Source: Azotosporobacter soli
GTDB lineage: Bacteria > Bacillota > Negativicutes > SG130
Direction: 5' to 3'
NCBI RefSeq assembly: GCF_030542965.1
Contig: NZ_JAUAOA010000006.1
Location: 62,001-126,000, forward strand
Length of the DNA stretch: 64,000 nucleotides
Of this stretch, positions 20,968-23,476 are shown one piece after another; positions within the stretch are counted from its first letter, which is position 1, and the number at the start of each line of letters is the position of its first letter. The notes below the pieces were generated by a model. That model had not been told where the DNA came from and ran no database searches. It saw nothing but the letters and a program-made list of their open reading frames with translations. The position numbers and the translations under genes were made by a program.

Positions 20968-21654
20968 ATGTTTATACCCAGCTCACTCCCTCCGGCAACG
21001 CCGGTTTCGTTTATGGATTCGGTCGGCAGCTGGACTTCGTCTGTCGCACTGCCCGATTTAGGCGAGGTTTCTCCCGTTCTTAAAGAAACCTGGGATTTGC
21101 AGACGTTTGAAAATCTGCAAGAAGGCAAAGTGGCCGTTCCCGATGACGCTATCAATCAATTCCTGGCGGATTCGCTTAAAGATCAGACCGAGGTAAGCGA
21201 ACTAACGATCGCTTCGCGCGCCGACCAGACGCTGGCGATTCATGCCAAAACCAAAGCAATCGGTCGCATCGATCTGATTTGCAAAGTGGATCTTTTCGAA
21301 CACAACCGCGAGCATTCGCTGATCCGTCTGAAAGTGACCGACAAAAAATTGCCCGATCATCCGATCCTCTCCTGGATGTTTGCCCGCGTCAGTCTGGCGA
21401 TGGCCACCAAGCTGACCGGGCCGATCAAGCCCGGACATGGCGTCATCGTCACCATTAACGGCAACCTGGTTTCGGTCGATGTCCGCCAGGCTTTGCTCGA
21501 TTCCAACCTGGGCCAGGTCAATCTGTTCGGCTGGCAGCCGATCCACGCGCTGAGCATTCGCAGCGCTACACCGGAAGCCGGTCACCTGCTCTTGACGACC
21601 GACCTCACCGTGCCGGAAAACATCCGCAAACTCGTTTCGGCTTTCTTAGGTTAG
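20968..21654 (+). CDS. Conserved-looking hypothetical protein
   Basis: 228 residues after a perfect AGGAGG. No signal peptide or membrane helix is visible. The middle (about 75-125) has alternating strands (ELTIASRADQTLAIHAKTKA, IDLICKVDLFEHNREHSLIRL) and the end LTTDLTVPENIRKLVSAFLG. The sequence looks like a beta-rich lipid- or ligand-binding fold of the kind seen in DUF2140/LmeA-like proteins, but this is a weak guess. I do not recognise it. Confidence 0.6.
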   Translation: MFIPSSLPPATPVSFMDSVGSWTSSVALPDLGEVSPVLKETWDLQTFENLQEGKVAVPDDAINQFLADSLKDQTEVSELTIASRADQTLAIHAKTKAIGRIDLICKVDLFEHNREHSLIRLKVTDKKLPDHPILSWMFARVSLAMATKLTGPIKPGHGVIVTINGNLVSVDVRQALLDSNLGQVNLFGWQPIHALSIRSATPEAGHLLLTTDLTVPENIRKLVSAFLG

Positions 21655-21888: not shown

Positions 21889-22011
21889 ATGGATAGCTAT
21901 TTATCGGACTGGTTCATCAGCGATTGGATCCTCTTCCCCGTCTCACTGGACCCGGAAGCCATCGCCGCCACAGTTTCGCACGCTCCAGCCCCACTCAAAC
22001 ACAATATATAG
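21889..22011 (+). CDS. Tiny ORF (40 residues) ending in an NrdR box
   Basis: 40 residues, MDSYLSDWFISDWILFPVSL then a Pro/Ala-rich end. The ATG follows AAAAGGAGG. It is acidic and aromatic at the start, without a clear helix or signal. Its TAG stop is part of the NrdR box at 21999-22014, so the box marks the end of this unit and the beginning of the next gene's control region. Function unknown. Confidence 0.4.
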   Translation: MDSYLSDWFISDWILFPVSLDPEAIAATVSHAPAPLKHNI

Positions 22012-22046
22012 TGTCTCACGAATAAAAAATAAACAATATATTGTTT
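21999..22046. promoter_or_regulatory. Pair of NrdR boxes
   Basis: Two 16-base palindromes, ACACAATATATAGTGT (21999-22014) and AAACAATATATTGTTT (22031-22046), match the NrdR box consensus (acaCwAtATaTwGwgt). They are 32 bases apart start to start, three helix turns, the usual arrangement for the NrdR repressor of ribonucleotide reductase genes. They lie 74-120 bases before the gene at 22120. Confidence 0.8.
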
Positions 22047-22119
22047 TTCCGGCAGGAATTTTTCTCTGCAGCGCGAATACTAAACCAGAGAAGAGAAATC
22101 CACTTGGGAGGCATTGACA

Positions 22120-22395
22120 ATGACATTGGTAAATGACGTTCTGGTATCCTATCCCGACGCGATCAGCCCAAAAGAAGCAGCCGCTTATCTGGCCGAAGAA
22201 AAGGAACAGTGGCGCGCAAAGGGCAAGGAACTCGGCAAAATGATTCTGACGCTCGACGGCAACGAGGTCGTCATCCAAAGTTCGGAGAAATCTCCGATTA
22301 AGCGCATTCGCCGGATCACCGGTTATCTGAGCGAATCCAGCAACTTTAACGCCGCGAAACAAGCCGAGCTAGATGCAAGGGTGATCCACTCCTAG
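22120..22395 (+). CDS. Short NrdD-tail-like protein
   Basis: 91 residues from the ATG at 22120, after GGGAGG. The last 30 residues, from IKRIRRITGYL to AELDARVIHS, resemble the C-terminal end of anaerobic ribonucleotide reductase NrdD (R-R-x-x-GYL ... K ... RV-H), but the zinc Cys residues are missing and there is no glycyl-radical or catalytic domain. The first 60 residues are charged and mostly helical. A pair of NrdR boxes upstream supports a role in deoxyribonucleotide supply, perhaps as a partner of NrdD. The tail resemblance is from memory of the family. Confidence 0.55.
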   Translation: MTLVNDVLVSYPDAISPKEAAAYLAEEKEQWRAKGKELGKMILTLDGNEVVIQSSEKSPIKRIRRITGYLSESSNFNAAKQAELDARVIHS

Positions 22396-22430
22396 CATCG
22401 CCCTTGTATACACGATAGATGCCCTGCAAA

Positions 22431-22464
22431 GAAACGGCCGACGCCCCCCTGCGTCAGCCGTTTC
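22431..22464 (+). terminator. Terminator of the NrdD-tail-like gene
   Basis: GAAACGGC-C-GACGC pairs with GCGTC-A-GCCGTTTC across CCCCCT, followed by TTTCTTCTTT. Confidence 0.85.
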
Positions 22465-22561
22465 TTTCTTCTTTAAAAAACATCTTTTAGGCAGGTTATC
22501 CGGCAACTCTGTCGAAGACCCATCCTTATATCCATTTTCAAAGCATAAAGGAGTCCTTTTT

Positions 22562-23476
22562 ATGAGTACACTTCGTTCCAATCTTTTCTTAACGCTCGCC
22601 GCGGTGATTTGGGGCTTGGCCTTTGTCGCACAGCGCGTCGGTATGGATTACGTCGGCCCGTTCACCTTTAACGGCGTACGCTTTGCGCTCGGCGCGCTGT
22701 CTTTGCTGCCGCTGCTCTTTTACTTCAAAAATGATCCGCAGCCTAAAGCGGCGCCGCTTGGCCGCAGTACGGTTCTTTGGGCCGGTCTTGTCGCCGGACT
22801 GCTTTTATTTTCCGGCGCTTCGCTGCAGCAAGTCGGACTGATCTATACGACAGCTGGAAAAGCCGCGTTCATTACCTGCCTCTACATCATTCTCGTGCCG
22901 ATCGCCGGCCTTTGGCTGAAACAACGCGTCGATACCGCGACCTGGCTCGGCGCTTTGCTTGCGCTGAGCGGTTTGTACCTCTTATGCGTCAAAGAAGGAT
23001 TCTCGATTGCGTTCGGCGATTTGCTCCAGCTGATCGGCGCTGTCTTTTGGACCGGACACATCTTATGGATTGATCATTTCTCGAAAAAAGTGAACGTATT
23101 CAAACTTTGCTTTGTCCAGTTCATCACCTGTTCCGCACTCAGCCTGACTACGGCAGCACTATGCGAAACGATCACCCTCTCCAGCCTGCAGCAGGCCATT
23201 GTTCCGATTCTGTACGGCGGCTTCTTCTCGGTCGGCATCGCCTACACGCTGCAAGTCGTCGGGCAGCGCCACGCCTCACCGGCGCATGCCGCGCTCATCC
23301 TCAGCCTGGAAACAGTCTTCGCCGCCCTCGGCGGCTACCTCCTGCTCGACGAAAAACTCGGCCGCTACGAGCTCCTTGGCTGCGCCCTGATGCTCGCAGG
23401 CATGCTGCTTTCACAGCTAAAAACAATCCTAGCCAGCCGAAAACAAGATTCTGACCTTTTAGGTCAGGAAGTCTAA
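22562..23476 (+). CDS. EamA (DMT) family transporter
   Basis: 304 residues, ten predicted helices in two EamA repeats. Typical features are AAVIWGLAFVAQRVGMDYVGP at the start, FLLFSGASLQQVGLIYTTAGKAAFIT-like motifs in the first half and SPAHAALILSLETVFAALGGYLLLDE in the second. It is most like the RhaT/YdcZ-type permeases of Firmicutes. Substrate unknown. The ATG follows AAAGGAG. It is not closely alike to the EamA protein at 9338. A terminator follows at 23494. Confidence 0.9.
   Translation: MSTLRSNLFLTLAAVIWGLAFVAQRVGMDYVGPFTFNGVRFALGALSLLPLLFYFKNDPQPKAAPLGRSTVLWAGLVAGLLLFSGASLQQVGLIYTTAGKAAFITCLYIILVPIAGLWLKQRVDTATWLGALLALSGLYLLCVKEGFSIAFGDLLQLIGAVFWTGHILWIDHFSKKVNVFKLCFVQFITCSALSLTTAALCETITLSSLQQAIVPILYGGFFSVGIAYTLQVVGQRHASPAHAALILSLETVFAALGGYLLLDEKLGRYELLGCALMLAGMLLSQLKTILASRKQDSDLLGQEV

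Follow-up and report, generated by a model that had tools for sequence, protein, structure and literature searches.

The gene described here lies within a stretch of 64,000 nucleotides of the Azotosporobacter soli genome (the window, to which all coordinates refer). As judged from its sequence, it encodes an autonomous, stand-alone glycyl radical domain (GRD) of the class III ribonucleotide reductase (RNR) type, carried on a private N-terminal domain. The following features were assigned to the locus.

21999..22014, no strand assigned: NrdR box 1, ACACAATATATAGTGT, with 0 mismatches to ACACWATATNTWGTGT
22015..22030, no strand assigned: spacer of 16 bp between the NrdR boxes, read from the sequence
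22031..22046, no strand assigned: NrdR box 2, AAACAATATATTGTTT, a perfect palindrome with 2 mismatches to the consensus
22106..22111, + strand: RBS-like GGGAGG, 8 nt ahead of the ATG, read from the sequence
22120..22395, + strand: ORF of the putative 91-residue stand-alone glycyl-radical-domain protein (P0001), conserved over its full length in many genomes
22120..22287, + strand: N-terminal domain, residues 1-56 (AlphaFold2 model, mean pLDDT 83; alignment A1)
22288..22392, + strand: predicted glycyl radical domain, residues 57-91, with IKRIRRITGYLSESSNFNAAKQAELDARVIH (PF13597 match; identity to NrdD tails)
22321..22323, + strand: GGT codon of Gly68, aligned with the NrdD radical glycine and invariant in 30/30 homologues
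22428..22467, + strand: hairpin with a T-rich 3' arm, a likely terminator (fold -24.8 kcal/mol, z -5.9 against shuffles)

The two 16-base palindromes were found exactly where an earlier note, made from the letters alone, had placed them, and their start-to-start distance is 32 bp. The ORF is a real gene, as evidenced by the RBS-like element, the downstream hairpin and full-length homologues with about 40-60% identity in about 30 genomes. The hairpin was absent from the list given by a simple consensus terminator scan. An ORF of 228 aa (20968-21654), whose family was not recognised, is located upstream on the same strand, and an EamA-like transporter ORF (22562-23476) comes after the gene. No apparent link to RNR was seen for either.

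The resemblance of the protein's tail to the C-terminus of NrdD, which the earlier note had pointed out, proved to be significant. Residues 57-90 matched positions 530-562 of the 562 positions of the NRDD profile PF13597 with an E value of 3.4e-7, above the gathering cut-off. The predicted radical domain displayed 55-59% identity to the tails of the NrdDs of its own genome, and its IKRIRRITGYLSESSNFNAAKQAELDARVIH could be aligned with IRRVRRITGYLSTMERFNDAKTKELKERTSH and VRRVRRITGYLSTVDRFNSAKRAELDSRIDH of these two enzymes. This alignment puts Gly68, within RRITGYLS, at the glycyl-radical position. The radical glycine is the key to the function of the tail and had no place in the earlier account, in which the Cys of NrdD was said to be lacking. 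That Cys is indeed absent, but both NrdDs of the same genome also have Thr, not Cys, before the radical glycine (RRITGYLS); Cys at that position is confined to another NrdD type (RRTCGYLG). The missing tail Cys was therefore rejected as a distinctive feature. The true absence is that of the zinc-finger cysteines: the 91 residues contain no cysteine at all, so that the CxxC...CPxC zinc finger of NrdD is missing, and its place is occupied by the cysteine-free N-terminal domain. The catalytic barrel of NrdD, with its active-site and finger-loop cysteines, is missing as well, and the protein reached 28 bits with TIGR02487, whose cut-off is 326. No Gly_radical domain of the pyruvate formate-lyase (PFL) type was found among its Pfam matches up to E 10, and for this reason the protein was not filed as GrcA.

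The N-terminal domain was predicted by AlphaFold2 to consist of strands, a helix (residues 17-33) and a hairpin (38-56). The radical loop was modelled with low confidence, and the model carries no docking information. Structure searches with it were uninformative, both with Foldseek (best E 0.36) and with VIA-align (best Z 5.4, to a ToxR periplasmic domain), residues 1-63 being effectively the part tested. Searches of phages and plasmids returned no full-length homologue.

The statement that no full RNR gene is near holds for the window, in whose 64 kb none was found, but not for the genome. An nrdR-nrdD-nrdG operon, a second nrdD and a class II nrdJ are present on other contigs, and both NrdDs are intact.

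NrdR proteins bind best to boxes with spacers of 14-17 bp (PMC12051234), and the 16-bp spacer of the window pair falls inside this range. Two signs of NrdR regulon membership were found for the gene, namely an upstream box pair with a spacer of 14-17 bp and nrdR in the genome. A census of the whole 3.78-Mb genome was carried out at up to 2 mismatches, with the pattern read backwards as control. The site at 21999 was the only one with 0 mismatches, the sole 1-mismatch site was located upstream of the class II nrdJ, and the second nrdD (nrdD2) was preceded by a 2-mismatch site. Since the reversed pattern gave about the same total number of matches, lone 2-mismatch sites are unspecific and carry little weight. 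The nrdR-nrdD-nrdG operon (G000:C7) has a weaker pair of boxes, with 3 mismatches each and also with a 32-bp offset. Conservation in relatives was then far above chance, as the earlier reading required: of the 91 distinct upstream regions of small GRD genes, 37 contained a box with at most 2 mismatches, against 0.28 expected from dinucleotide shuffles, and at 3 mismatches 52 did so, against 2.8. Some of these genes have no recognisable box. The recurrence ahead of the relatives' small genes supports the prediction that the window pair are NrdR boxes.

The homologues form a family of small GRD proteins of 85-110 aa in Negativicutes and Clostridia, often with NrdR boxes upstream. Such a protein was present in 39 of 60 genomes of the same class (Negativicutes). 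In the alignment of 30 homologues (A1), the residues I60, R62, RRITGYLS (64-71), F76, N77, A79, K80, E83, R87 and H90 were invariant in 30/30. A scan of GTDB species genomes revealed further stand-alone GRDs in Ruminococcus albus, Sporomusa acidovorans, Lucifera butyrica, Desulforamulus putei, Erysipelothrix and many Clostridia; this wider set was picked with a glycine-containing pattern and is thus unusable as an argument for glycine invariance. In the literature, of which mainly open-access papers were covered, no earlier account of an NrdD radical domain that stands alone was found. The suggestion that the protein belongs to the anaerobic RNR system as a small, so far undescribed component is supported by the tail match together with the recurring boxes.

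Three short proteins (L215, L216 and L217; G012:C45, G035:C118 and G035:C38) consist of the small-GRD N-terminal domain only and end where the radical domain would start (..SYEKPIIQLIPAKYVKE*). Weaker matches to such proteins were seen in G050:C236, G039:C69 and G019:C1. The L215 and L217 copies adjoin TetR-like or efflux-like ORFs. These proteins may serve a different purpose, or they may be relics.

A second line of evidence came from the NrdDs of related genomes. In 14 of the 60 relatives a "headless" NrdD was found, whose match to PF13597 ends at position 530-539. The headless ORFs stop soon after the zinc finger, near the position of the glycine (for example CPGCKKAQVRRVKKA-stop, against CPNCATASIRRVRRITGYL in an intact enzyme), and retain the finger-loop GCRT motif with its cysteine. 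Further cases, each with a small GRD, were R. albus 8, R. albus KH2T6, a Roseburia and an Oscillospiraceae MAG, and in a sample of the phylum two headless genomes had the headless nrdD and small GRD genes in tandem. In total, about 20 genomes with headless NrdDs were found and every one of them encodes a small GRD of the corresponding type. Among the relatives this corresponds to 14/14, given 39/60 carriers (hypergeometric p 9e-4, a figure made optimistic by kinship). In the phylum sample 3/3 headless genomes were among 6/61 small-GRD carriers, related genomes not being independent samples. On an NrdD tree built without the tail (a quick tree with SH-aLRT support only), at least 9 changes are needed to account for the headless state, which occurs in both major NrdD types; well-supported branches make 5 of these changes unavoidable.

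RNR is essential for the de novo synthesis of DNA precursors. In four genomes of about 99% completeness (G011, G013, G046 and G056), the sole RNR found was a headless NrdD plus a small GRD; neither PF02867 (class I and II) nor TIGR02505 (monomeric class II) matched anything in them, and no other NrdD was found. Because an essential enzyme would otherwise have no radical source, the radical in these four genomes is very probably supplied by the small protein. Related bacteria with a headless NrdD likewise appear to rely on it. One NrdD, with a decayed tail RRNGYLSIKEE (L185, G050:C151), counts against such dependence: a stand-alone GRD was not found in that genome, which is 89% complete and has an intact second NrdD.

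Other unusual NrdDs were also observed. In G044, which has two small GRD genes, the radical glycine of a full-length NrdD (L166, G044:C1, about 332512-334176) is replaced by Ser (RRITSYLTTVDRFNDAK), which was counted in favour of a radical supplied in trans. There are, however, enzymes with alanyl, seryl and threonyl radicals (PMC11528403), and this NrdD is not proven dead. NrdD ORFs of 1122-1209 aa (L219, G021:C45:65105-68221; G110:C4; G131:C110) have their NRDD match split by a large insertion, probably an intein. Two NrdD-related proteins (L060 in G057 and L194 in G045) have a C-terminal glutaredoxin-like domain with Cys-x-x-Cys, and a radical site was not located in them.

The small GRDs also follow the type of the NrdD in their genome. 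Three types of NrdD tail were distinguished, GYLS, GYLV and CGYLG. Where the NrdD tails of a genome are of one type only, GYLS or GYLV, its small GRD is of that type in 33/33 cases, and G044, whose NrdDs are of both these types, has both types of small GRD. None was found in the 9 genomes with only the CGYLG-type (RRTCGYLG) NrdD. Linkage to the activase gene nrdG was observed as well: the operon headless nrdD - grd - nrdG occurs in G056 and G038, and in G011 grd lies ahead of nrdG. In Desulfallas sp. Bu1-1 a small GRD is fused in frame to nrdG, and no nrdG was seen adjoining the nrdR-nrdD genes of this organism. In the AlphaFold model of the fusion the GRD had pLDDT <50, and the model gave no docking evidence. 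The larger alignments were left out for the fusion because the small proteins were misaligned in them (seen directly in A2, and from the identities in A6 and A7).

Known systems offer a precedent. When oxygen cuts PFL at its radical glycine, YfiD replaces the lost end (PMC8683613). GrcA/YfiD and phage T4 Y06I are likewise small proteins with a copy of the radical-loop C-terminus of a glycyl radical enzyme, the partner being encoded separately. A partner that ends near the radical glycine also has its parallel, since the headless NrdD resembles the mimic of cleaved PFL that was obtained by placing a stop codon at Gly734 (PMC8683613). The small GRD differs from GrcA/YfiD in its NrdD-type tail, which gave no PFL-type Gly_radical match, in its ties to NrdR and nrdG, and in a partner that is permanently headless in many relatives. 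Its N-terminal domain is predicted to be folded, whereas the N-terminal half of YfiD is disordered. With the class III NrdD it shares the last about 34 residues and the radical glycine motif RRITGYL, but it is a separate gene, and the catalytic barrel, the ATP-cone and the zinc finger are missing from it. In the split class II NrdJa/NrdJb, a C-terminal RNR domain also comes from its own gene and acts in trans (PMC5704485; PMC9669993); NrdJb, however, provides a B12 enzyme with its redox cysteine/zinc domain and has no radical site. NrdD is encoded in pieces in split phage nrdD genes too (PMC3653736), but these result from introns, inteins or fragmentation, whereas the small GRD is autonomous, conserved and provided with an N-domain of its own. 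Spare parts have been validated only for PFL; others were suggested to exist and the question was left open (PMC8683613).

The headless NrdDs and the linkage to nrdG suggest a mechanism for the small protein. NrdG would install the radical on Gly68, the Gly68 loop would enter the barrel of an NrdD without a glycyl domain of its own, and the radical would be handed to the catalytic cysteine of that NrdD. Cleavage by oxygen at the radical glycine would leave an NrdD with about the same end point as the headless ones. The small protein could then take the place of the missing tail, in the way that GrcA/YfiD serves PFL. Its co-regulation with the RNR genes by NrdR would ensure that the part is made when dNTP synthesis is needed. 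In dependent lineages the NrdD tail would have been lost and the small protein would have become indispensable, as one of the two polypeptides that make up their class III RNR, the headless NrdD being the genetically fixed counterpart of the cleaved enzyme. A trans-acting radical-domain role for the family is very likely. The reading that explains the data best, an autonomous GRD supplying the radical to NrdD in trans, for repair in the window genome and as an obligate subunit where NrdD is headless, is as a whole likely. For its local part, the repair of oxygen-cleaved NrdD, which is the likeliest role in the window genome, the expectation is only reasonably good. As a point against it, that genome has a class II RNR besides its two intact NrdDs and may not need a spare part.

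A different role in this genome can be envisaged, that of a dedicated, exchangeable radical carrier that serves intact NrdD too, in a two-component radical system and not in damage repair. NrdR control ties the small gene to dNTP demand and not to an oxygen regulator, and in the four near-complete headless-only genomes a radical supplied in trans must sustain normal growth. However, the GRD of an intact NrdD fills the site and would have to be displaced, and YfiD is activated by the PFL activase solely when cleaved PFL is present (PMC8683613), which makes such a carrier rather unlikely. The operon linkage to nrdG, the fusion with NrdG and the NrdR boxes upstream would equally suit a regulator or decoy, a tail mimic that binds NrdG (or NrdD) and limits NrdD activation with no catalytic radical of its own. 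Yet the glycine is invariant in 30/30 homologues, genomes whose sole RNR is a headless NrdD would be left with no radical site, and it would be unexplained why a small GRD always accompanies GRD loss; a decoy is thus improbable. As for a decaying, functionless fragment of a duplicated nrdD, the shortness of the protein and the restriction of the NrdD match to its end might suggest one. Its conserved N-terminal domain is foreign to NrdD, about 40-60% identity is kept across families, and the gene has its own upstream boxes, RBS and downstream hairpin. This origin was rejected on conservation and gene structure, and hardly any weight is left to it.

The preferred reading, trans supply of the radical to NrdD, can be extended tentatively. 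Class III RNR in anaerobic Bacillota might widely be a two-subunit enzyme, whose storage radical would reside on a small, diffusible, exchangeable, NrdG-activated protein; headless NrdD and GRD together would then constitute a new subclass, with the window protein as the same carrier for intact NrdDs. This broader proposal is speculative and less likely than not.

If the preferred reading is true, the small protein would be the first spare part for an enzyme essential to DNA synthesis, and anaerobes would have an oxygen-recovery route for dNTP synthesis. The drawing of class III RNR would change, and on several occasions a repair part would have become an obligate subunit. The headless NrdDs point to a dependence of dNTP synthesis, in some anaerobes, on a radical-bearing subunit of ~100 residues, which Pfam can label only as NrdD.
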